Assembly (NCBI GenBank): GCA_013140715.1
Contig: JABFSG010000004.1
Span: 1-64,000 of the forward strand
Length of the DNA stretch: 64,000 bases
Direction: 5' to 3'
DNA from: Nitrospiraceae bacterium
GTDB taxonomy: Bacteria > Nitrospirota > Nitrospiria > Nitrospirales > Nitrospiraceae
Shown in pieces: positions 8,307 through 64,000 of this stretch. The number at the start of each line of letters is the position of its first letter. Position 1 is the stretch's first letter. The notes beneath the pieces are model-generated. The model was not told the origin of the DNA. It saw only the letters and a program-made list of their open reading frames with translations, and did no database searches. Both the position numbers and the translations under genes were made by a program.

Positions 8307-8693
8307 TATGTCCTCGTTACCATGAGCCCTTCATGAAAAATCGATTTCTACTGGGGCTCAAAAAAATATCGGCGACTATAGCACGCGGTTTTTTCACAGG
8401 TAAAGCAAGGAGGAGGGGATGGAGCCTGATGATCTTCTATGCTCGCGCAACGCGCGGTCGCGGACTCCCCTCGTTGGACGCGCGCCGTGGAAGATCAATC
8501 AGCCCCCATCCCTAGAGAGACAACGAGCAAGCTTGGAGGGAGCATACATATCGTTCGATGCGCGCAGTCAAGGAAGGCTTGCCTACTCTTCTTCTAGAAG
8601 AGGAACCAGTTACCCGTTGCTCGACTTCTCCTCTTGAAGGCAAAACTTTGCTAGAATGCGCCGGCTCACTCTTGTCACGCTGAGGACCTCATC
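8307..8693. other. Divergent intergenic region filled by hairpin repeats
   Basis: About 390 bases between the ProA-like gene (minus) and ltaE (plus). Both promoters must lie here. Most of the span is occupied by one complete two-unit hairpin repeat (8416-8512) and a second, less regular unit (about 8522-8590). No protein gene is convincing. Confidence 0.6.
8416..8512. repeat. Two-unit hairpin repeat, copy A
   Basis: Arms GGGATGGAGCCTGATGATCT (8416 onward) and its imperfect complement ending at 8512 enclose two direct units, TGCTCGCGCAACGCGC and CTCGTTGGACGCGCG, about 12 bases apart. The same two-unit arrangement recurs at 42139, 51270 and 53550. The left arm and first unit also recur on the opposite strand at 51380-51421. 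A second weaker unit (TCGTTCGATGCGCGCAG) follows at about 8550. Confidence 0.8.
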
Positions 8694-22944: not shown

Positions 22945-22952
22945 CAGCCTAT

Positions 22953-22999
22953 CCGGTTCATTTGGTTTGTTTGGTCTGTTTAGTTTGTCTAGTTTAGAG
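22953..22999. repeat. TTTGGT-type degenerate repeat, single arm
   Basis: A run of TTTGGT/TTTAGT-like hexamers between tRNA-Ser and tRNA-Phe. Unlike the copies at 28251, 57952, 60914 and 62033, no complementary ACCAAA arm follows, so it cannot fold alone. Confidence 0.7.
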
Positions 23000-23058
23000 A
23001 GCTTGATTTTTCTCTGGCGATCCTGTAACTCTGCGTCGCTCTTCTTGCCGTAGTCCGT

Positions 23059-28250: not shown

Positions 28251-28333
28251 ACTGGTTTGTTTGGTTGATTTGGTTCATCCGGTTAGTTTCGTTCAATCAA
28301 ACAAACAAGATAAACCAGACAAACCGAATCAAC
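28251..28333. repeat. TTTGGT/ACCAAA degenerate hairpin repeat
   Basis: The left arm runs through TGGTTTGTTTGGTTGATTTG and GGTTCATCCGGTTAG. The right arm consists of CAAACAAACAAG, ATAAACC and AGACAAACC units, complementary to the left. It lies 3 bases after the decarboxylase stop, a terminator-like place. Confidence 0.85.
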
Positions 28334-37413: not shown

Positions 37414-37730
37414 GTGCATGCCTCCTTGGTGATGATCAAGACGGTGAACCGGCGACGTAGCAACAGGAGATGGCCATAACGCCATTCGAGAATTTCTACG
37501 AAATCATGCTAACATGCACCCCCAATCCAGTCAACGAAACAGCCGGCGACTTGCCCGCTTACTGTTTCGCATCTGTGGCGTAACAGAAAGATATTTCCGC
37601 AGGATGCTCAAACAGCCCGATCAGCAAGGCCCCAGTGAGTGAAGCAGGTTGGGGTCGAGGTTCAGGTTGGACAAAAATCTGACATTTCTCTCTCACCCTT
37701 AACCTAAGCCTTAACCTTCCTTGAAGGAGA
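37414..37730. other. Divergent intergenic region with partial repeat
   Basis: About 315 bases between the lipoprotein operon (minus) and a small plus-strand gene. The segment 37593-37632 (ATATTTCCGCAGGATGCTCA AACAGCCC...CAGCAAGGCC) repeats the start of the element at 37991, including its upstream flank ATATTTCCG. The rest should hold the operon promoter. Confidence 0.5.
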
Positions 37731-37907: not shown

Positions 37908-37990
37908 AACCAGGAAGCTGAAAAAACCACGTTAGCACGTAAGGACTTTATGATTCATACGTGTGTATCGTCGGAAGAAGAATATTTCCG

Positions 37991-38116
37991 CAGGATGCTC
38001 AAAAAGCTCGTCCAGCAAGGCCGCAGCCGATGAAAGCACCGGAGGCGTAGCCTCTCGGCTACGTTGAGGATGCTTTCGAGGGGAGAACGCCGCTGGCGGG
38101 ATTTTTCAGCAGCCTG
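37991..38116. repeat. Inverted-repeat intergenic element, copy 2
   Basis: 126 bases. The ends CAGGATGCTCAAAAAG and CAGGCTGCTGAAAAATCCCG (as reverse complement) match copy 1 in the opposite orientation. The middle has GCGTAGCC-tct-CGGCTACG. The right end abuts the TAG stop (38117-38119) of the caspase-TPR gene. Confidence 0.88.
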
Positions 38117-39517
38117 CTATGGCTTCGCGGGTGCTGACTGTGCAACCGCAGCTCTGGCACGGGCGTGATTCCCGCCGAGTTCGAGGTAGCGTGTGAAGGC
38201 CTCAACCGATTTCGATTGGTCCTTCATCTCGTCGGCATAGAGGATGCCAAGGGAGAAATAGACGTCACGATAGTTGGGATTGACCACTAGCGCTTCTCGC
38301 ATGGCTCGCTCTGCCTCGCCATACTGCCCGCGCTTTTCATAAATTAGACCGAGTGTATACTGAGAATCCGGGTTCTTCGGCGCATATCGCTTCGCCAGTA
38401 TAGCGGCCGATAATGCGTCGTCGAGATTCGGGAGCACTTCTAACAAGACATAGCTCTTGAGTACGTAGGCGTCGCCAAACGTGGGGGCATATTCCAACGC
38501 GGTGTTCAGCAGTTCCAACGCTTCCTCCGAGGATTTCCCCGATTGGAGAAGCGCATAGGCCCGCTCGTATTTTATCTTCGCCGCCTGCTGTCGCTCGGCT
38601 GGAGACTGGGGCGCTGTCCCACTCAGAAAAGCGGCCTTTCGCCCCTCGATCAACACCGTATCCCCGTCCCCTTCGAGCTGCACAAAAAGGGGATGCTGAA
38701 CACCCTTCGACCGTTCCAGGACCTGTTGTTGTACAAAATCTCCGATCTCTGAGGCCATGAGCCAACCGTTTTTGTTACGATCCGCCATGCCGTTCAAACC
38801 ATCGATCAACGCCTGCACGAAGAGACTCCTCCCGTTCTCCTGACTCAACGGCTCGCCCCTATCGCCAGCCGTCAACACTTGCACAGCGCGTCGCTCCGTA
38901 TCGTCTTCCGGAGCCAGTCGTCCTTCGAGAGACAGTGGCTGAGCTGCGCTCACCTCCCACCCGCGCACTGCAGCATTCAAGAAAAAGAGGGTGTGTTTCG
39001 ATGCACTGCGCCGGCTGAACTCTTTCAGCTGTTCAAAGGTCACCGATTTAGACACATTCCCGATCTGCGCATCCCAGGGAACGAGATACCCAAGCTCCTT
39101 TCCGTCGAGATCCTGCGTCACGCCAGCATGTCCGACAAAATAGAACAGAAGCCTGTCGTGTCGACCGACCTTGCGGGGCAGGAAATCGGAAAGCGTCTGC
39201 TGCAGACGCCGCACACTCGCATCCTTGTCGTAGAGCTCAACGACCTCGTCGAAACCCAGACGACGCAGGGTCTGAGCCACAGCCTTGGCATCCTCGATCG
39301 CCCCGGGAATCTTTGGGGCCAGAAGATAGTTCTCCACCCCAATGACAATGGCCCACGACTTGTAATAGAGCCCTTCGGGTTTGCCCAATTGCGCAGACGC
39401 CGATAGCGGACTGAACAGGGCCAGCAGCGAATAGAGGAGACATCCAAACATGCAAGGCCGCAGTTGGCGCTGCACATTCGACAAGCTCAATTGGATCGGC
39501 TCTATTGTGTGATGCAT
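38117..39517 (-). CDS. Secreted caspase-fold protein with TPR repeats, catalytic Cys lost
   Basis: 466 aa. Signal-like segment (GCLLYSLLALFSPLSASA). Residues 52-300 form a caspase/metacaspase p20-like domain: WAIVIGVENY, IPGAIEDAKAVAQTLRRLGFD, and the catalytic His block LLFYFVGHAG (H130). The usual LDxCxSG block is LNAAVRG, so the catalytic Cys is Ala183. About four TPR motifs follow (320-460, for example YERAYALLQSGKSSEEALELL). A binding role rather than proteolysis is inferred. The stop abuts a repeat element. Confidence 0.82.
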   Translation of the reverse strand: MHHTIEPIQLSLSNVQRQLRPCMFGCLLYSLLALFSPLSASAQLGKPEGLYYKSWAIVIGVENYLLAPKIPGAIEDAKAVAQTLRRLGFDEVVELYDKDASVRRLQQTLSDFLPRKVGRHDRLLFYFVGHAGVTQDLDGKELGYLVPWDAQIGNVSKSVTFEQLKEFSRRSASKHTLFFLNAAVRGWEVSAAQPLSLEGRLAPEDDTERRAVQVLTAGDRGEPLSQENGRSLFVQALIDGLNGMADRNKNGWLMASEIGDFVQQQVLERSKGVQHPLFVQLEGDGDTVLIEGRKAAFLSGTAPQSPAERQQAAKIKYERAYALLQSGKSSEEALELLNTALEYAPTFGDAYVLKSYVLLEVLPNLDDALSAAILAKRYAPKNPDSQYTLGLIYEKRGQYGEAERAMREALVVNPNYRDVYFSLGILYADEMKDQSKSVEAFTRYLELGGNHARARAAVAQSAPAKP

Positions 39518-42138: not shown

Positions 42139-42239
42139 GTGGGAGGGCAGACTAGATGTCTCCCTTGCTCGTGCAACGCGCGGTCTGAGAAGACCCTCGT
42201 TGAACACGCGCAGTAGGAGACAATCTAGTCCACCCTCAC
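42139..42239. repeat. Two-unit hairpin repeat, copy B
   Basis: The arms GTGGGAGGGCAGACTAGATG... and its complement GGAGACAATCTAGTCCACCC enclose two direct units TGCTCGTGCAACGCGC and CTCGTTGAACACGCGC. It starts 3 bases after the stop of the IPT gene. A further unit-like segment (TCGTTCGATGCGCG) is at about 42260. The arm sequence is unrelated to copies A, C1 and D. Confidence 0.8.
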
Positions 42240-42335
42240 GGAAGAACTTAGAAGACGGCGGTCGTTCGATGCGCGTAATGAATGGCAACCTGGACCGTTT
42301 CAATAAAATGAAGCTGCGAAAGTTGGAGGATTCTA

Positions 42336-42560
42336 GTGCAACGCGCGGGGCGTAAGCCAGGCGAGCCCATCTATCTCAAGCGTCACATGCTGGGTCTCAT
42401 GCTGGCTGTGATCTCCCCCATTCTGCTGCCCCTCCTCTACCATCGCTATATCGGGCCACTGAGTTTTGCCACCCAATTTATCGCAACCCTGCTTATCGCT
42501 CTGATCGGAAGCCTCGTGCTCTATTTCACCTATCGATCCTCGGCTCAGAACGAGCCGTAG
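42336..42560 (+). CDS. Small membrane protein, two TM helices
   Basis: 74 aa, GTG start with GGAGG seven bases upstream. Two membrane segments: MLGLMLAVISPILLPLLY and FATQFIATLLIALIGSLVLYF, with positive N-terminus. Function unknown. The start region GTGCAACGCGCGG is identical to a unit of the adjacent hairpin repeat, so the current start codon may derive from repeat sequence. Confidence 0.6.
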   Translation: MQRAGRKPGEPIYLKRHMLGLMLAVISPILLPLLYHRYIGPLSFATQFIATLLIALIGSLVLYFTYRSSAQNEP

Positions 42561-51269: not shown

Positions 51270-51545
51270 AAGGGTAGCCTGGTTGATCCTCGAGTGCGCG
51301 CGTCAAACGAGCACATTCCTATCGTGCGCGTTCCGCGAGCAGGAGGACGACCAGGCTACCCTTCCCATCCTTCTGAGACGCGCGTTGCGCGAGCACAGAA
51401 GATCATCAGGCTCCATCCCTTGCCCCTTGCGCGCATCCTTCTCATCCACTCTCTCACGGAGGGTATAGTCAAGTTGCCCTTTACTGCGCGCATCGAGCGA
51501 CCACAGTTTCATCGTGGGGGCTCTGCGAGCAAGAAGGGCACCTGG
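51270..51545. repeat. Compound array of two-unit hairpin repeats, copies C1-C3
   Basis: C1 (51270-51363): arms AAGGGTAGCCTGGTTGATCC and its complement, enclosing units of types TGCTCGCGGAACGCGC and TGCTCGTTTGACGCGC (minus strand). C2 (about 51364-51425): one unit TGCTCGCGCAACGCGC plus the same arm as copy A. C3 (about 51460-51548): arms GGAGGGTATAGTCAAGTTGC and complement with more degenerate units. The array lies just downstream of the helicase stop, and C3's arm includes that stop codon. Confidence 0.78.
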
Positions 51546-53315
51546 CTATGCCCTCCCACCTCTTGGTTGGTCCAGAAACAACCTCACCCCAACCTTCTGC
51601 CCCTTGATCCTCGTCCGGCTGAGCGCCTCGATGATTTCTCTGGCCAACACCTCCGGCACTTCCACCAGCGAGAAGCGATCCATCACCTCGACCGCGCCGA
51701 TTACATTCGAATTGAGTCCAGCCTCGTTGGCAATCGCCCCGACAAGATCTCCAGGCCTGATCCCTGCCTCCCTGCCTGCGCCGATATAGACCTTCGCCAT
51801 GCCAGCCGTTCGCCCGCCGCGACCAGGAGGGCTGAAGGGTCTGCCCTGTCCTTCTCGCGGCATCATACGACTGGGCTGACTCCGAGGATCTCCCATGGGA
51901 CGACGCCCCATCGATGGCCGCTCCGGCTGCCTGCTCGGCATGGCAGGAATATCCTGCTCCTTCCGCTCTCCACCCTGGAGGCGAAAGACAAGCTTCAGCG
52001 CAGCCGCCGCCACCTCTGTCGGGTTTCCCTCTTCGGCAAGTGCCGTGGCCACGGCCCGGAACAGATCCAGCTCGCCGGCTGCAAGTACGTCTTCAATCGC
52101 ACTCTTGATTCGCGCAAGCCGTTTCGTCCGAAGGTCGGCGACCGTCGGCACCGGAGTGACGACAATTTTCGCTTTGGTGAGCTGCTCGATGTTCCACAAC
52201 AGCCGCTGCTCGCGCGGGTCGATGACGGTGATCGCCGCCCCTTCACGTCCGGCTCGCCCGGTCCGTCCGATCCGATGGACATAGCCCTCCGGGGACGTCG
52301 GCAGATCGTAGTTCACCACATGCGAGACGGACGGAATGTCCAACCCCCGCGCTGCCACATCGGTCGCGACAAGGAGTTCTGTCTGACCGGACCGGAACGA
52401 ATTCATCACACGATCCCGTTGGGGCTGATTCATCCCTCCATGAATCGCTTCGGCCTTGTGCCCTCGACCTGTCAACATGGCCGTGATTTCGTCGACTTCG
52501 ATACGAGTGCGGCAGAACACAAGAGCCGACTTGGGAGCCTCCATATCCAGAATACGAGCCAGGGCCATTTCTTTATGTTGTCTGGCCACAATGTAGGCGG
52601 TTTGATGGACGCGCGGTGCGGCGCCTGCCTTGAGCGGCTCCTTGGCAATCTTGATCTCAACCGGTTCCTTAAGATGGCGCTTGGCAATGGACGCAATCCG
52701 GGGCGGCATGGTCGCTGAAAACAACGCGGTCTGCCGTTCTTTGGGCGTCTGTTCAAGAATGGCATCCAGATCCTCGGCAAAACCCATGTCGAGCATCTCA
52801 TCTGCCTCGTCCAGCACGACCGTCTGAACCGTCTTGAGCTGCAGAGTCTTTCGCTTGATATGGTCTAGCGCCCGCCCGGGCGTCGCAACGACGACATCGA
52901 CCCCTCGTTTGAGTGCGTAGAGCTGCGGGCCTATGGCCTGCCCTCCATAGACCGGAAGCACGGAGACTCGTAATTCCTTGCCGTAGCGGGTGACCGATTC
53001 GGCAACCTGAATGGCTAACTCTCTGGTCGGCACCAGGATGAGAACCGAAGGACAGCGCCGTGCCGAATGGGCGATGCGCTGAAGCAGCGGGAGCGTGAAG
53101 GCTGCCGTCTTGCCGGTACCGGTTGCCGCTTGGCCTAACAGGTCGCGGCCTGCCAACAACGGAGGGATCGCCTCCCGTTGGATCGGTGTCGGCTCCTCAT
53201 AGCCTAGCGTGTCAAGCGTAGTCAGCAGGGCAGCTTCCAGACCCAGCGCGGCAAAGCCGGGAGAAAACCCTTTCGCCTGTGATTCTGCGGATGGCGTGGT
53301 CGTTTCGTGTTTCAT
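51546..53315 (-). CDS. deaD: DEAD-box RNA helicase, DeaD/CsdA-like
   Basis: 589 aa from ATG 53315 (a GTG or ATG further upstream would add 30 aa). Q motif and motif I AATGTGKTAAFTLPLL, motif II DEAD (VVLDEADEMLDMG), motif III SATMPP, motif VI HRIGRTGRAGREG. The C-terminal DbpA-type RNA-binding domain (KVYIGAGREAGIRPGDLVGA) follows an Arg/Pro-rich linker (about 455-515). It unwinds RNA, probably in ribosome assembly or cold response. Confidence 0.93.
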   Translation of the reverse strand: MKHETTTPSAESQAKGFSPGFAALGLEAALLTTLDTLGYEEPTPIQREAIPPLLAGRDLLGQAATGTGKTAAFTLPLLQRIAHSARRCPSVLILVPTRELAIQVAESVTRYGKELRVSVLPVYGGQAIGPQLYALKRGVDVVVATPGRALDHIKRKTLQLKTVQTVVLDEADEMLDMGFAEDLDAILEQTPKERQTALFSATMPPRIASIAKRHLKEPVEIKIAKEPLKAGAAPRVHQTAYIVARQHKEMALARILDMEAPKSALVFCRTRIEVDEITAMLTGRGHKAEAIHGGMNQPQRDRVMNSFRSGQTELLVATDVAARGLDIPSVSHVVNYDLPTSPEGYVHRIGRTGRAGREGAAITVIDPREQRLLWNIEQLTKAKIVVTPVPTVADLRTKRLARIKSAIEDVLAAGELDLFRAVATALAEEGNPTEVAAAALKLVFRLQGGERKEQDIPAMPSRQPERPSMGRRPMGDPRSQPSRMMPREGQGRPFSPPGRGGRTAGMAKVYIGAGREAGIRPGDLVGAIANEAGLNSNVIGAVEVMDRFSLVEVPEVLAREIIEALSRTRIKGQKVGVRLFLDQPRGGRA

Positions 53316-53484: not shown

Positions 53485-53549
53485 TGATACTCGCTCCAAG
53501 CTTGCTCGTACGCTCTCCCCTCAGGGGTTATCCAACTGTCCCCTTTTCT

Positions 53550-53650
53550 AGGCGTAGGGCCGTTGGAAGCTTTCTATTGCGCGCGTCGAACGAGCACATT
53601 CTTATCGTGCGCGTTCCGCGAGCAGGGAAAGCTCTAACGGCCCTACGCCT
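53550..53650. repeat. Two-unit hairpin repeat, copy D
   Basis: The arms AGGCGTAGGGCCGTTGGAAG (53550 onward) and CTAACGGCCCTACGCCT (ending 53650) enclose units of types TGCTCGCGGAACGCGC and TGCTCGTTCGACGCGC (minus strand), 9 bases apart. The right arm contains the stop codon of the 67-aa gene at 53643, so the hairpin sits where its terminator would be. Confidence 0.85.
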
Positions 53651-53846: not shown

Positions 53847-53947
53847 GCGACTGTTTCCTTTTCGTCACTCTCCTGAGTCTGATACAGTCTGGCAAGGTCT
53901 TGATGATGCCCTGCCGGAGAAAGTAGTAGAGAGTTTCACCATCAGCG

Positions 53948-54070
53948 CTGGCTGTTCAAAAAGACCGTCCAGCAAGGCGCAGCGAATGAAGGCCCGAGGC
54001 GTACCCTTGTGGTACGTTGAGGGTCTGAACGATGCGAGAACGAAGCTGGCGGACTTTTTGAACAGCCTGA
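53948..54070. repeat. Inverted-repeat intergenic element, copy 3
   Basis: Ends GGCTGTTCAAAAAGACC and GACTTTTTGAACAGCC. Contains GTCCAGCAAGG, GCGTACCC-ttgt-GGTACG and GAGAACGAAGCTGGCGG, all matching copy 2 with paired changes (GCGTAGCC/GGCTACG becomes GCGTACCC/GGTACG). It is 17 bases upstream of the hrpB start ATG and makes a spurious 5' extension of that frame. Confidence 0.83.
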
Positions 54071-54087
54071 TCACTATCGAACCTATC

Positions 54088-57334: not shown

Positions 57335-57494
57335 TGGTCAACTATACCACCAGCCGAAAACATTGCCTTCTCCGCTAGACCTAGTGGTGAAGACTTTTGC
57401 GCTGTGCAGAAGTCAGCAAACACCCACACGGCAACGGGCGAGGGGGACGTGTGAGACGTATTTTTTTCTGCAAGCCGGGTATCACACACCCCCG
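57335..57494. other. Spacer upstream of the SET gene
   Basis: About 160 bases. No gene. Mixed GC with a T-run (57464-57470). It would carry the promoter of the SET gene. Confidence 0.3.
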
Positions 57495-57660
57495 CAGGCT
57501 GCTCAAAAAGGTCATCCAACGAGGCCGCGGGCGAGTCACAACCGGAGGCGTAACCTCCTCACCCGCCCACCCCAAACTGCTAGCGCAGTTCTCTCTCGAG
57601 GGCTACGTTGAGGATGCTTTCGAGGTGAGAACGAAGCTGACGAGTTGTTTCAGCAGCCTG
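57495..57660. repeat. Inverted-repeat intergenic element, copy 4
   Basis: 166 bases. Left end CAGGCTGCTCAAAAAGG, right end (reverse complement) CAGGCTGCTGAAACAACTCG. Shares GTCATCCAACGAGGCCGCGG, GGAGGCGTAACCTCC and CTACGTTGAGGATGCTTTCG with the other copies, plus about 45 extra bases in the middle. The right end abuts the TAG stop (57661-57663) of the MoaD-like gene. Confidence 0.8.
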
Positions 57661-57939
57661 CTAGATGGGGATGTCGCGAGTGCCATCATACGACGTTCTC
57701 GACTGGTGGGATAACTTCACGGTATCGCCGTCCCTGACTACTGTGTCGTCGGCGCTCACTTTCTTATTGACGGCAATCATCACTTCGCGATTCGCCAGGA
57801 ACTGTAATAACGGGCCCATGCGATCCTGATTCGATTCAAGAAGTTTCCTGACCGTGGTCGGCTCTGAGACCTCGATCTCAAACTCTGTTTCTCCAACCGC
57901 ATCGCGAAGCGTCAATCCAAAAACCAGAACTCTGACCAT
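57661..57939 (-). CDS. MoaD/ThiS-type ubiquitin-like protein without C-terminal Gly-Gly
   Basis: 92 aa. Beta-grasp pattern: MVRVLVFGLTLRDAVG, FEIEVSEPTTVRKLLE, EVMIAVNKKVSADDTVVRDGDTVKL. The last residues are SRTSYDGTRDIPI instead of a terminal GG, so sulfur loading at a C-terminal Gly thiocarboxylate is not possible as read. The TAG stop borders repeat element copy 4. The gene follows the GlcD-GlcF gene on the same strand with a TTTGGT hairpin between. Confidence 0.8.
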   Translation of the reverse strand: MVRVLVFGLTLRDAVGETEFEIEVSEPTTVRKLLESNQDRMGPLLQFLANREVMIAVNKKVSADDTVVRDGDTVKLSHQSRTSYDGTRDIPI

Positions 57940-57951
57940 TGAAACCTCGTT

Positions 57952-58043
57952 AGGTGGTTCATTTGGTTTGTTTAGTTTATTTGGTTGCTTTGGTTTATCT
58001 GGTCAGTGTCAACCAAACAAACCAAATAAACAAAACAAACCTA
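57952..58043. repeat. TTTGGT/ACCAAA degenerate hairpin repeat
   Basis: Left arm TAGGTGGTTCATTTGGTTTG, then TTTATTTGGTT units; right arm CAACCAAACAAACC and AATAAACAAAACAAACCTA. The last bases overlap the stop codon of the GlcD-GlcF gene (58041-58043). Terminator-like place between two same-strand genes. Confidence 0.85.
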
Positions 58044-60866
58044 CGCCCGGTCCGCTGCCTCATAGGCTTCTTGAATTAGTTGCGCCACATGTTTGACTTC
58101 TGCTGATCCCTGCAAGCCGGTCCGCAATTGAATCATACAGGCTGGGCAACTCGTCGCTACTACCTCAGCGCCACTCAGTTCGACAGCCTGCCGCTTGCGC
58201 ACAACAATTCGCTGCGAGGTCTCAAAGTCCTTCACAAGATAGGTGCCGGCTCCTCCGGCACAGCGATCGGCGTCTTGCATCTCGACGTACTCGACACCAG
58301 GAAGGCTTCTGAGAATCGTACGAGGTTCTTTGGTCACTCCCGCTGCCCTCAAATGACAGGATGAGTGATAGGCTACCTTGCACTTTTTGGACTGTGGACC
58401 GGCCATGGCAGGTTTCACAGATGACTGTGCCACAAACTCAGAAATATGCGTGACCCGTTTGGCCAAGGCCTGGGCTGCCGCTTGCTCCGGCTCACCGGCA
58501 AATAATGTGGGATAGTCCTTCAGCATGAGGGTGCAGGAGGCACAGCCGGTCACCACCTTGTCATACCCTGCCATCGTGGCAAGATTGACCCGTGCGCCCT
58601 CTTTGGCCAAGGAGCGATGACCATAGGTTTCAATTGGCGTTCCGGAACAGCGTTGTGGCGGCAGGTCCGGCTCAACTCCATGTTTTCGCAGCACCGCTAT
58701 CACGGCATCCCCTACCCCATCGTCGAAATAGTTCGCCGCGCAGCCATGAAAATAGGCTACCGGAGAGCGAGGCGTTTGTTTGCCTTCTGGGATCAGTTCG
58801 GGATAGCGATCGCGCAGGTGTCGCCGGGCCAGTTTTGGTAGAACAAGTTGAGGTGACAATGCTGCCGTCGCAGCTAGACGATGCATGAAGGGCTTTGTGA
58901 GACGATCGAGCAATACCCGCATGAAAGGCCGATCCCAGACTGCCTGATACTTCGCGAGAAACTTCAAGAATCGTTCGAATCGTGCTGTCTGGGCATGGAA
59001 GCGAAAAATAAAGCCGGCCATCTGATTTGGATGTTCGGCACGCCGGTCTAGGATGAGCTGAGACACATCAACTCCCGCCGGGCAGGCTGTACGACAGGAC
59101 TTGCAGTTGAGACAGGCCTCCACCACTCGCTTCGAATCGAGGTAGCTGTAGTTCTTATCGGTGACGATCTCAAACCAGCCCCGCGAACTCATGTCTTCCG
59201 ATTGAAAGACATCGTAGACTGGGCAGACGGCGTTGCACTTCGCGCAGGTCGCACAGGATTTTGACAGTCGCTCATAGTCGATATGGTCGGTGAAGGGCCT
59301 GTCGCTGATCTTGATGCCTGGGTTGAGCATTCCGGTGGGATCAAAGCTCTGCTTCACCCGCACAAACAGGTCGTAGAGCTCCGGGCCGAACATCGCCTTC
59401 ACATATTCGGCGCGCACCCGTCCATCCCCATGCTCCCCACAGATCGAACCGCCGAAGCGGCCCAAGACTGTTTGGTGAATCTCGTGGTAACCCTGCACCA
59501 TCCTCTCAAAATCTGCCTGGTCGTTCACGTCGAGTAAGGGAATGACATGGGCATTCCCATTTCCGATATGACCAAAAATTGCGACCGGCACTCGCTGACC
59601 GGCAAAAAACTCTTCCAGATAGTGGATAAGTTCGCTGATGCGTTCAGCCGGCACCACCACGTCGTCGACAAAATTGATGGGTTTTTTTTGGGGGTCGAAT
59701 CGATAGAGGGTCGGATAGAGAGCCTTGCGGGCCTTCCACAATTGCTCCCGCTGCTCAGGGTCGAAGGCGATCACAGGATCGGACGTGAGGCGATAGCGTC
59801 GGCAAACCTCGATCATGCGCCCGGCCTGCTCCTTGAGATCCATCTCTATTGCATCAGCATCCAATTCCACCAAGAGGGTGGCAGCCGCATCTGCCGGGAT
59901 ACCATGTTTCGCCCGTCCAATGAGATTGAGCGTGTTGGCATCCATGACCTCCAATGCGCTCGGACTCAACTCGAGCAACTTCGGCACAGCCTCGCCCACA
60001 TCTTCCAATCGGTGAAAATGGATGAGTGCCGTGAGAGTCGCACGCGGTTTCTCAACCAGCTTAATCGTCGCTTCACTGAAGAGACCAAGCGTGCCCTCGC
60101 TGCCGACAAAGAGCTTTGGAAGATCGAAACAGCCTCTCGCAAGCCCATCGGCAAGACCGAAGAGGTTATATCCACAACTGTTCTTGCTGACAGTCGGACG
60201 TTTCTGCCCAATCAGTGTCGCATGATCCTGTAGCAGAGACCGCAGATCATGAAGTGACGTATGGGTCTTCAGTAGATCGGCGCAAATCGGGTCGTCGAGC
60301 CCATAGGTCTTGGCATCCAGCCACTCGCCGGACTGTAGGCAGACACGAAGCGCCGCTACATTATCTTTGACGGCACCGTACCGTAGCGTGTGGGGACCGG
60401 AGGAATTATTCGCCAACATCCCACCCAGCTTACACATGTCTCCGCTGGAAGGGTCCGGTCCGAACAACAGACCCTGGCGACCCAGCTGCTTGTTCAATTC
60501 AGCCAGTACGATCCCCGGCTGTACTCTCGCCCATCGCTCATCCCGATTCACTTCGAGAATTCGATTCAACCGCGAGACATCGAGAATAATGCCGGACCCG
60601 ATAGCAGAACCGGTCAGATTCGTCCCGGCAGCCCGCGGCGTCAGCGGGATGCCTCGCTCAACGGCATACCGTACCGTGGCAGCAATGTTCTCCTCGGACT
60701 CGACAAGCACCACGGCCTTGGGCTGCATGCGATAGATGCTCGCATCCACTGCATAGGCAGTGAGCGTCGAGTAGTCGTCTTTGACTTTGTCAGCACCCAG
60801 TGTGGCACGAAGGTCAGAAGCAATGGCGTGGGAACGTTCAGGCAGAATGAGTGTAGGTGCGGTCAT
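58041..60866 (-). CDS. FAD-linked oxidase / Fe-S fusion (D-lactate or glycolate dehydrogenase)
   Basis: 941 aa, a GlcD-GlcF type fusion. FAD-binding domain (about 30-190: PRAAGTNLTGSAIGSGIILD), FAD-oxidase C domain, then two 4Fe-4S sites (CATCAKCNAVCP and CLNCKSCRTACP) and two CCG domains (FHGCAANYF...CSGTP, YHSSCHLRAAG...CAGGAG). Such proteins oxidise D-lactate, glycolate or similar 2-hydroxy acids and pass electrons to the membrane. The substrate is not decided by sequence. Confidence 0.88.
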   Translation of the reverse strand: MTAPTLILPERSHAIASDLRATLGADKVKDDYSTLTAYAVDASIYRMQPKAVVLVESEENIAATVRYAVERGIPLTPRAAGTNLTGSAIGSGIILDVSRLNRILEVNRDERWARVQPGIVLAELNKQLGRQGLLFGPDPSSGDMCKLGGMLANNSSGPHTLRYGAVKDNVAALRVCLQSGEWLDAKTYGLDDPICADLLKTHTSLHDLRSLLQDHATLIGQKRPTVSKNSCGYNLFGLADGLARGCFDLPKLFVGSEGTLGLFSEATIKLVEKPRATLTALIHFHRLEDVGEAVPKLLELSPSALEVMDANTLNLIGRAKHGIPADAAATLLVELDADAIEMDLKEQAGRMIEVCRRYRLTSDPVIAFDPEQREQLWKARKALYPTLYRFDPQKKPINFVDDVVVPAERISELIHYLEEFFAGQRVPVAIFGHIGNGNAHVIPLLDVNDQADFERMVQGYHEIHQTVLGRFGGSICGEHGDGRVRAEYVKAMFGPELYDLFVRVKQSFDPTGMLNPGIKISDRPFTDHIDYERLSKSCATCAKCNAVCPVYDVFQSEDMSSRGWFEIVTDKNYSYLDSKRVVEACLNCKSCRTACPAGVDVSQLILDRRAEHPNQMAGFIFRFHAQTARFERFLKFLAKYQAVWDRPFMRVLLDRLTKPFMHRLAATAALSPQLVLPKLARRHLRDRYPELIPEGKQTPRSPVAYFHGCAANYFDDGVGDAVIAVLRKHGVEPDLPPQRCSGTPIETYGHRSLAKEGARVNLATMAGYDKVVTGCASCTLMLKDYPTLFAGEPEQAAAQALAKRVTHISEFVAQSSVKPAMAGPQSKKCKVAYHSSCHLRAAGVTKEPRTILRSLPGVEYVEMQDADRCAGGAGTYLVKDFETSQRIVVRKRQAVELSGAEVVATSCPACMIQLRTGLQGSAEVKHVAQLIQEAYEAADRA

Positions 60867-60913
60867 GGTTGAAGACGTCGATCATTGTAGACGCTCCCTT
60901 GAGAGCAGTACAA

Positions 60914-60996
60914 GTCTGGTTTCTCTGGTCTATCTGGTTCATCTAGTTATTCTGGTTCAAGCAAACAAACAAGACAAACCAAACAGACCAAACAAC
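60914..60996. repeat. TTTGGT/ACCAAA degenerate hairpin repeat
   Basis: Left arm CTGGTTTCTCTGGTCTATCT and further GGTT units; right arm CAAACAAACAAGACAAACC, AAACAGACC. It lies between the divergent GlcD-GlcF and 2-hydroxyacid dehydrogenase genes. Confidence 0.8.
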
Positions 60997-62029: not shown

Positions 62030-62032
62030 GCG

Positions 62033-62107
62033 GGTTTATTTGGTTTGCCTGGTCCCTTTGGTTCATTTGGTTAGCTTCGTTGAACTAAACAAACCAAATA
62101 AACCTAA
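62033..62107. repeat. TTTGGT/ACCAAA degenerate hairpin repeat
   Basis: Left arm GGGTTTATTTGGTTTGCCTG, right arm AACTAAACAAACCAAATAAACC. It lies between the convergent stops of the dehydrogenase and the TPR gene, so it could terminate both. Confidence 0.85.
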
Positions 62108-62113
62108 TACCTG

Positions 62114-64000
62114 CTAATTTCTATAGCGAAAGGCAGGGGTCGACTCATCCGGCGCGCTGTGCGCGCGAGCCGATTCGAGTCGTTGCGGCACGTCGTGGAA
62201 GGTTGAAATCGTTTCGTAGATTGCGGCAGCCAAACTCCACTGCTGTTGGGCCTCGTACAGCAGACCGAGCTCATAGCGAATAGCCTGCGCCTTGGCCCCC
62301 TGGCACTTCGGATTCTTCAGCAGCGCCTCGAGCTGTTCGCTCGCCGACTGACCGTCTCCCTGTTCTTTCGAACAGACCGCGAGCATGAGACAGGAGTCCA
62401 AGAAAAAATCCTGGCTCTTCATCGAGAGAGAAAACTCTTCTTTCGCTTCGTCCAGCAACCCCATATTCTTGTAGGCCACTCCCAGCATGTAATGAGCCTC
62501 AGGATCGATCATCTCTTTCGCAGGCTGAGCAGAAGCCTTCGGTTCGACGACTGGAACCGGCGTTTGCGATTTCAGCGAGAATATCGATGCCCATTTGACC
62601 AACAGAGGGCTGGCAGGAGCAAGCTCTTTGACTTTCGCAAAGAGACCAGACGGCTGGGTCATATCCTTATCTCTATCTGGATCGGCCAGGAGCAATTCGA
62701 GGGCGCGGGAATATTGCAAGGCAGCGCCGGCTGTATCGCCCTTGGCTTCAAGCAGAGAGCCGAATAGTTCTCGGGCCTCTGCATGATCCGGCTGCTCTGT
62801 AACCAGACGACTCAGCCATTCTTCCGCCTCAGTCTGCTGTCCCGCCTTCACATAGACCTGGAATTGCTCACTCACTGACAGGAGAGGCTGGGGAGGTGCC
62901 GTCTGATCTGCCTCTTTCGGCAACGTCCCCCATAACTGATCCGGCTCGACATTCTCCCATGAGGACCCGTTACCAGACATACCCGTTTCTGATGCTCTTG
63001 ACCGTGACGACTCCCATGGGTTTGCCGCTGGTTCAGGCACAACGATCGAAGACTGGTTATCTTCTAGTGAAGTGCGATTGGGAGGCAGCGTCCAGAATTG
63101 GTCGTCCGGAACGGCATTGTCCGTCGAAAATGTGTCCGTCCGGATCGGGCTGGGTGAGGTCGAAGGCGTCGAAGTCTCGGGGGACTCGGATTGAGCAGGA
63201 GAGATCGATTCCTCCACTGCTGCACCATGCATGAGAGCAGTGAGTCTCTTCGCGGTCGGGCTATCCGGCGCCAGCGAGATCACCTTCTCGAACAATTCCT
63301 CATGTAATGTCGGCATCCCCGGTTCGGGATGTTCCAGCAGCAGCTCAATCGCCTTTCCATACTGGATAGCGGCATTGGCGGCATCGCCTTTCTCCCCATA
63401 GAGTTCTCCGTAGAGTTCAAGCATCGCAACCGACTGAGGTTCGATCGCGAGAAAATCTGTAATCAGCTGGTCTGCCTTCTCATAGTCCTGTGCCCGCAAT
63501 GCCGCTCCCGCGAGATAACGATATTCACCAAGCGCCACTTGAAGGTCTCCCCGTTGCAGATGCAACTTGGCCAACAACTGACAGACGTCGGGATTTCCCG
63601 GCTCTTTCGTCAACATTTGATTGAGAATGGCCTCAGCTCCGGCAAACTGCTTTGCGTCGATGCGGCGGGTGGCTTCAGACAGAAGATTCAGCGGCTCGGT
63701 GCTCTTGGGCAACGGTCCCCCGGAGACGGCTCCAGCCTTGGCGACACGGCTGGGACCCCCATCGGCCTTTTTGAAATGTTCGATGAACTGAGCGGCTTCA
63801 CTATTAGCAGGATCGATCCGTAATACGGCTTGATAGGCATCCTTCGCCTCAGCATAGCGCTGCTGCGCCGACCGTTCACGCCCCAATTGTAAATAAACTT
63901 TTGTCGCTTCGTCCTGCATATTTTCTTGCAGGCACAATTCCGCCACACGCTGCTGGGCATCCAGGTTCGAGGGATCCTGACTGACGATCTTCTTGTAGAT
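62114..64000 (-). CDS. Large TPR-repeat protein, 5' end outside the window
   Basis: At least 628 aa; the frame stays open to base 64000 (IYKKIVSQDPSNLDAQQR precedes an internal GTG at 63946), so the start is beyond the window. Repeated TPR-like motifs (e.g. VYLQLGRERSAQQRYAEAKDAY, ALGEYRYLAGAALRAQDYEKA). A disordered Ser/Pro/Thr-rich middle (about 330-420) is followed by more TPR near the C-terminus (MLGVAYKNMGLLDEAKEEF). Probably a scaffold; no catalytic domain seen. Confidence 0.82.
   Translation of the reverse strand: MYKKIVSQDPSNLDAQQRVAELCLQENMQDEATKVYLQLGRERSAQQRYAEAKDAYQAVLRIDPANSEAAQFIEHFKKADGGPSRVAKAGAVSGGPLPKSTEPLNLLSEATRRIDAKQFAGAEAILNQMLTKEPGNPDVCQLLAKLHLQRGDLQVALGEYRYLAGAALRAQDYEKADQLITDFLAIEPQSVAMLELYGELYGEKGDAANAAIQYGKAIELLLEHPEPGMPTLHEELFEKVISLAPDSPTAKRLTALMHGAAVEESISPAQSESPETSTPSTSPSPIRTDTFSTDNAVPDDQFWTLPPNRTSLEDNQSSIVVPEPAANPWESSRSRASETGMSGNGSSWENVEPDQLWGTLPKEADQTAPPQPLLSVSEQFQVYVKAGQQTEAEEWLSRLVTEQPDHAEARELFGSLLEAKGDTAGAALQYSRALELLLADPDRDKDMTQPSGLFAKVKELAPASPLLVKWASIFSLKSQTPVPVVEPKASAQPAKEMIDPEAHYMLGVAYKNMGLLDEAKEEFSLSMKSQDFFLDSCLMLAVCSKEQGDGQSASEQLEALLKNPKCQGAKAQAIRYELGLLYEAQQQWSLAAAIYETISTFHDVPQRLESARAHSAPDESTPAFRYRN

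Follow-up and report, generated by a model that had tools for sequence, protein, structure and literature searches.

What maintains a hairpin whose arms change in sequence from copy to copy while continuing to pair, and is the selected object RNA or DNA? This question is raised by positions 53,550-53,650 of the window, by which we mean the whole stretch of 64,000 nucleotides analysed here (positions 1-64,000, forward strand, of contig JABFSG010000004.1, Nitrospiraceae bacterium assembly GCA_013140715.1, genome label G000). An earlier note on this DNA had described copies at 8416-8512, 42139-42239, 51270-51363 and 53550-53650, each with two direct units about 9-13 bases apart inside a long hairpin. 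All four are present there, with unit starts 28 nt apart and 12 nt between the units, and when folded as RNA against dinucleotide shuffles they reach z-scores of -3.2, -6.1, -6.7 and -7.7, the DNA fold being similar. The list of four is real but incomplete, as a fifth full copy and the half copies had been missed (Table 1). In this fifth hairpin, the stop codon of a DEAD-box helicase gene lies inside the 5' arm.

Table 1. Hairpins, partial copies and accompanying repeats in the window.
Feature	Position	Strand	Details	Score (bits)
Full hairpin (main finding)	53557..53646	-	arms GTAGGGCCGTTAGAGCTTTC.. / ..GAAAGCTTCCAACGGCCC; units 53609-53624 and 53581-53596	95.3
Full hairpin	51274..51362	-	arm family C (AAGGGTAGCCTGGTCGTCC)	86.4
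Fifth full hairpin	51464..51553	-	core variant AGAGCCCCCAC/GTGGTCGCT; arm family B	73.4
Full hairpin	42144..42233	+	directly 3' of stop codon 42134-42136	87.8
Full hairpin	8418..8507	+	arm family A (GATGGAGCCTGATGATCTTC)	76.1
Half copy	51375..51412	-	family A 5' arm and unit 1 only	
Half copy	8549..8580	+	unit 2 (ATCGTTCGATGCGC) and remnant of 3' arm	
Half copy	42260..42290	+	unit 2 (GTCGTTCGATGCGC) and remnant of 3' arm	
Isolated unit-1-like sequence	42331..42346	+	unit resemblance	
Linker motif CGAGCAAGCTTGGA	8524..8537	+	3' of hairpin	
Linker motif CGAGCAAGCTTGGA	53495..53508	-	3' of hairpin	
9-base tandem repeat tracts	22946-23005, 28252-28328, 57947-58048, 60909-60992, 62031-62116			
Second palindromic repeat, about 125 bp	37585-37635, 37976-38119, 53946-54072, 57480-57663		CAGGCTGCTCAAAAAGG ... 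CCTTTTTCAGCAGCCTG	

The repeat is a hairpin about 90 nt long; its stem comprises about 35 pairs, and arms of about 20-25 nt, variable in sequence, enclose a fixed 47-nt core. The layout is arm - TGC t CGC[G/A][C/G]AACG c GC - short loop - GC t CGTT[G/C] ga [C/T]GCG c GCA - arm, with unpaired bases in lower case. The 16-nt units (TGCTCGnnnnACGCGC) are direct repeats, yet they form opposite strands of one stem, unit 1 pairing with unit 2; what the earlier note took for conserved loop units are in fact stem strands bound to each other, and not loop elements. Near-invariant T.C and C.T mismatches and a GA bulge interrupt the stem, and these unpaired positions are among the most constant, being retained in 318, 318 and 309 of 324 copies, respectively. 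In the same set, paired core positions vary: pair 30-62 is GC in 208 copies and AT in 99, pair 31-59 is GC in 183 and CG in 132, and pair 28-64 has switched from GC to CG in 23, a rarer form. As the variable core pairs change together almost perfectly, the variable bases (nnnn) of unit 1 are tied to those of unit 2.

The arms behave likewise. In a gapless alignment over 90 columns of 19 copies from this genome, double-sided changes occur in 26 of 35 pairs, with a covariation of 0.362 against 0.180 after shuffling and at most 0.158 with partners slid, so that the paired arm changes which had been proposed as a genome-wide check are indeed seen. At a single orthologous site, 3' of purC, covariation is again above its controls (0.228 against 0.115 shuffled and at most 0.080 slid), with the core flipping between two common types. 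The earlier conclusion that compensating arms mean a maintained fold is thus borne out with respect to the paired changes, in arms and core alike, while their cause is ambiguous, because much of the variation lies between recurring arm families swapped as whole elements and because template switching can homogenise arms even when no fold is selected. Such switching between inverted-repeat arms also inverts spacers (PMC8604942), and it would explain both the paired arm changes and an inverted copy described below without selection for the fold. The constant core mismatches are not explained in this manner and need selection or a reader.

Across the genome, many arms fall into recurring families (A, B and C), although those of the four copies first described differ from one another, as previously noted. 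In 53 of 316 copies the two arms fit each other no better than do 90% of randomly paired arms; a few of these are N runs or off-register, and several are chimeras with two arms from different families. Half copies and nested copies are common, as are direct tandem arrays whose spacing is about 125-130 nt. A linker motif like AACGAGC[A/G]AGCTTGGA lies at +30 to +39 after 65 of 316 hairpins, and purines dominate the flanks on either side (76% and 71%). We note that extended hairpins of 137 nt also exist (L033, L045 and L145; in G000, C2:59290, C3:29331, C36:10331, C49:45698 and C58:52095), which, where read, hold an insert like CTGGCACGTCTCGGCGTGCCAGTGGGTGGGCGGGTGAGAAAG between loop and 3' arm. 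Separately, intergenic tracts of a degenerate 9-base tandem repeat (GGTTTGTTT-like) are followed by an inverted copy (AAACAAACC).

To count copies, a step also recommended in the earlier note, we used the covariance model R1 with a cut-off of E<=0.01, which gives 144 copies in this 3.58 Mb genome. The unit pattern with up to one mismatch occurs 229 times versus 22 for the reversed control, and the strict two-unit core with up to three mismatches 105 times versus 0 when reversed. Nearly all Nitrospira genomes searched have the repeat at high frequency; in other large ones the strict pattern mostly reaches 66-138 copies (reversed pattern, 0), and other genera of the GTDB family have 1-16, the relatives being mostly metagenome bins and their copies phylogenetically non-independent. 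Sampling across the phylum gave matches in 30 of 32 genomes of the family, as opposed to 0 of 116 genomes of other families, with 0 control matches. In a separate scan, the named entries among the matches listed all belong to Nitrospira or Nitrospirae, the chromosome of Nitrospira defluvii being one of them. A small Nitrospira genome of 1.8 Mb (G021) has nearly lost the repeat, retaining 3 strict and 13 weak copies that are visibly decayed, and thereby offers a natural experiment for the missing factor; a second reduced genome, G016, is also poor in copies.

The repeat has no Rfam model, and we found no description of the family in the literature on Nitrospira repeats, REP/RAYT systems, structured RNA and hairpins, in agreement with the initial impression that no named family has this design. 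At gathering score, Rfam covariance models match only tRNAs in the window, and at E<=1 the four loci have no relevant match. RepRanger gives for N. moscoviensis only a total of predicted REPs. An origin from phage or plasmid was rejected, as no exact match was present in viral_contigs or plasmids.

Mapping the copies relative to stop codons, as had been suggested, reveals a pronounced bias. Between codirectional genes, 100 copies are in sense and 13 in antisense orientation, the sense copies having a median stop-to-arm distance of 6 nt, and stop codons pile up at or within the base of the 5' arm. Genes were called using a simple coding-score gene finder and the calls are approximate; on this basis about 40% of copies (116 of 288) adjoin a called stop codon, and the remaining 60% or so show little enrichment of sense frames ending at the hairpin. 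Hence, placement at stop codons is a strong bias and no rule. The upstream genes include what we take, judging from their first residues, to be gatB, purC, ribBA, sucC, atpD, ftsK and mutS2. At many genes (e.g. L054, L256 and L267) a short repeat, TAGCAGGATGCTGAAAAAG, which contains the stop codon of the gene, precedes the hairpin.

Three ortholog sets, each picked because G000 has a hairpin there, allow these positions to be followed among Nitrospira relatives. The hairpin is found just 3' of gatB in 15 clear loci of about 27 readable, just 3' of atpD in 17 loci plus some with altered cores, and just 3' of purC in 22-23 of 30. At the gatB and atpD sites, several species without it have other repeats or hairpins, and in one locus (L310) the entire hairpin after atpD is inverted. 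The site after 42136 is occupied by one arm family in G000, by family C in both G026 and G008, and by family B in G027. At the site of 53557, G019, the closest species in the sample, shows a new hairpin with the right half of the old one behind it, whereas no hairpin is present in G008 or G012. Therefore, the sites are partly conserved while their occupants turn over. Occupied and empty orthologous sites were both seen, with flanks too diverged for a base-exact junction or target-site duplication. The second palindromic repeat listed in Table 1 matches five relatives dozens of times each and sits 3' of gatB in several species without the hairpin; in the atpD-atpC gap of four loci from species without the repeat (L314, L317, L324 and L325) there are unrelated hairpins (CGTGAAAGGTGAAACG ... 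CGTTTCACG).

A cis-acting RNA element in the 3' UTR or intercistronic region, protecting or processing the mRNA 3' end or stalling ribosomes at the stop codon and selected there, with core mismatches that would bind an RNA-binding protein or nuclease, is a serious rival, and we regard it as a genuine possibility, if not the probable one. Arguments for it are the sense bias, the stop codons found at the foot of the 5' arm, the conservation after gatB, purC and atpD, where arm changes come in pairs, and the fact that other species fill these gaps with different hairpins or repeats. Selection on a sense RNA is expected to raise G.U above A.C on the transcribed strand. In the main population this is not the case, neither in the inner arm (G.U 141, A.C 192) nor in the core (33 versus 45), and even where copies adjoin stop codons the inner arm has 57 G.U to 88 A.C; after deduplication and exclusion of an internal loop at arm position 7, whose inclusion inflates the A.C excess, the counts are 31 versus 53 (p = 0.02). 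The nine decayed G021 copies display the opposite trend, with G.U at 28 and A.C at 13, which hints at an RNA-level constraint. Also speaking against selection as RNA, the structure is as intact in the copies away from called stops as in those beside them, and occupants are swapped between sites. Nor is there a U-tract: a U-rich stretch follows the hairpin in sense in 4 of 399 copies, while on the antisense strand such a stretch would follow 32 of 399, owing to A-rich sequence before the 5' arm. Intrinsic transcription terminators, suggested by stable GC-rich hairpins after stop codons, are consequently extremely unlikely given also the purine-rich flanks; the sense version was rejected for want of a U-tract and the antisense version because the copies concerned are too few.

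Among DNA-level alternatives, classical REPs once moved by a RAYT (Y1 transposase) that is now partly lost would account for position, copy number, mosaicism and the mismatch-bearing stem, all of which are REP-like, and G000 does have a Y1 gene. It has a single one, and no mobilising protein was identified, as Y1 does not track copy number: the near-complete and copy-rich genomes G001, G009 and G018 are without a match to PF01797. As the hairpin foot has no conserved tetranucleotide and the stem outside the core is variable, too, we consider this origin very unlikely. Integron attC sites follow stop codons and form imperfect palindromes in which unpaired bases are conserved. Sites of this kind, folded single strands recombined by a tyrosine recombinase, would fit these same features of the hairpins and the chimeras joined at the core, but only 2 of 32 Nitrospira genomes, G000 not among them, encode an integron integrase that passes the curated cut-off, and the copies are dispersed without cassette arrays, which makes an attC-like identity highly improbable. 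The two integrase-bearing genomes are G017 and G020 (L377 and L378).

Based on these comparisons, we propose a Nitrospiraceae-specific family of dispersed palindromic repeats, REP/BIME-like, that spreads and recombines as DNA, a reading to which we assign about an even chance. It is supported by the copy number together with the restriction to one lineage, by unpaired core bases that are nearly invariant while paired ones covary, by the arm families, nested and half copies, chimeras, swapped or empty orthologous sites and the inverted hairpin, and by the absence of a G.U excess over A.C in the sense strand combined with intact structure away from stops. The hairpin and its purine-rich linker would spread to new sites by copying, become nested, recombine and be exchanged among sites. 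The hairpin presumably forms in single-stranded DNA, where the constant mismatches may be read by a putative recombinase- or transposase-like factor; a precedent for such recognition is TnpA-REP, which needs conserved mismatches on single-stranded REP DNA (PMC8266576). The arms would need only to pair, with polymerase template switching plausibly copying changes from arm to arm. Where a copy adjoins a stop codon, it may act on the upstream mRNA as a side effect, as is reported for E. coli REPs; work cited in PMC12306157 reports that ribosomes stall at REPs lying within 15 nt of a stop. Several observations weigh against a DNA repeat, namely the Y1 gene that does not follow copy number, the absence of a base-exact insertion junction or target-site duplication at the sites compared, the long retention at gatB, purC and atpD, which looks like more than neutral descent, and the G.U excess in the decayed copies. 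More tentatively, and on balance rather unlikely, a putative Nitrospiraceae enzyme may move or recombine these DNA hairpins by reading only the fixed mismatch pattern, i.e. a pair of T.C-type mismatches separated by about one helical turn, along with the GA bulge, in a stem that is otherwise free, and may place the hairpins in sense at gene ends. If true, this would represent a new hairpin-DNA recombination system, neither of RAYT nor of integron type.

Nitrospira drive nitrite oxidation and comammox, and the repeat is present at about 100 copies in many of their genomes. It may influence the expression of many housekeeping genes, such as gatB, purC, atpD, sucC and ribBA, via their 3' ends. 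Being conserved in shape and mismatches with the arm sequence free, this hairpin is well suited to telling apart selection on RNA, template switching at the DNA level and mobile systems that read hairpins.

Of the known systems, the REP/BIME/REPIN elements with their RAYT, e.g. in E. coli, are similar in being high-copy, extragenic, mosaic and clustered palindromes with constant stem mismatches (PMC12306157; PMC8266576). Many REPs are located within about 20 nt of a stop codon (PMC12306157), and the Nitrospira repeat, too, is extragenic, multi-copy and near stop codons. REPs are however short palindromes (about 14-40 nt) with a conserved stem consensus, a terminal GTAG- or CGTC-type tag and a Y1 transposase, whereas the Nitrospira repeat is about 90 nt long, varies its arms with pairing kept, has no arm-end column as conserved as such a tag, only purine-rich flanks, and is abundant in the three genomes without a Y1 match; unlike REPs, its copies often stand in direct tandem. 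Because the tests of tag, size, conserved stem and Y1 transposase fail, we do not file it as a REP. The GTAG-/CGTC-tagged palindromic repeats are likewise short palindromes between genes, with some families lacking a dedicated transposase (PMC3733652), but their stems of 5-13 bp end in a tag, as opposed to about 35 pairs and no tag here. Integron attC sites share the imperfect palindrome after stops and the conserved unpaired bases; they differ in the conserved R boxes (RYYYAAC / GTTRRRY) at the foot, where the Nitrospira repeat has a variable arm and places its conserved core mid-stem, and its dispersal and the scarcity of integrases set it further apart. MITE-like non-autonomous elements are comparable as non-coding sequences of high copy number with nested insertions, but the Nitrospira repeat is without fixed terminal repeats, its arms varying between families, and no parent element was found.
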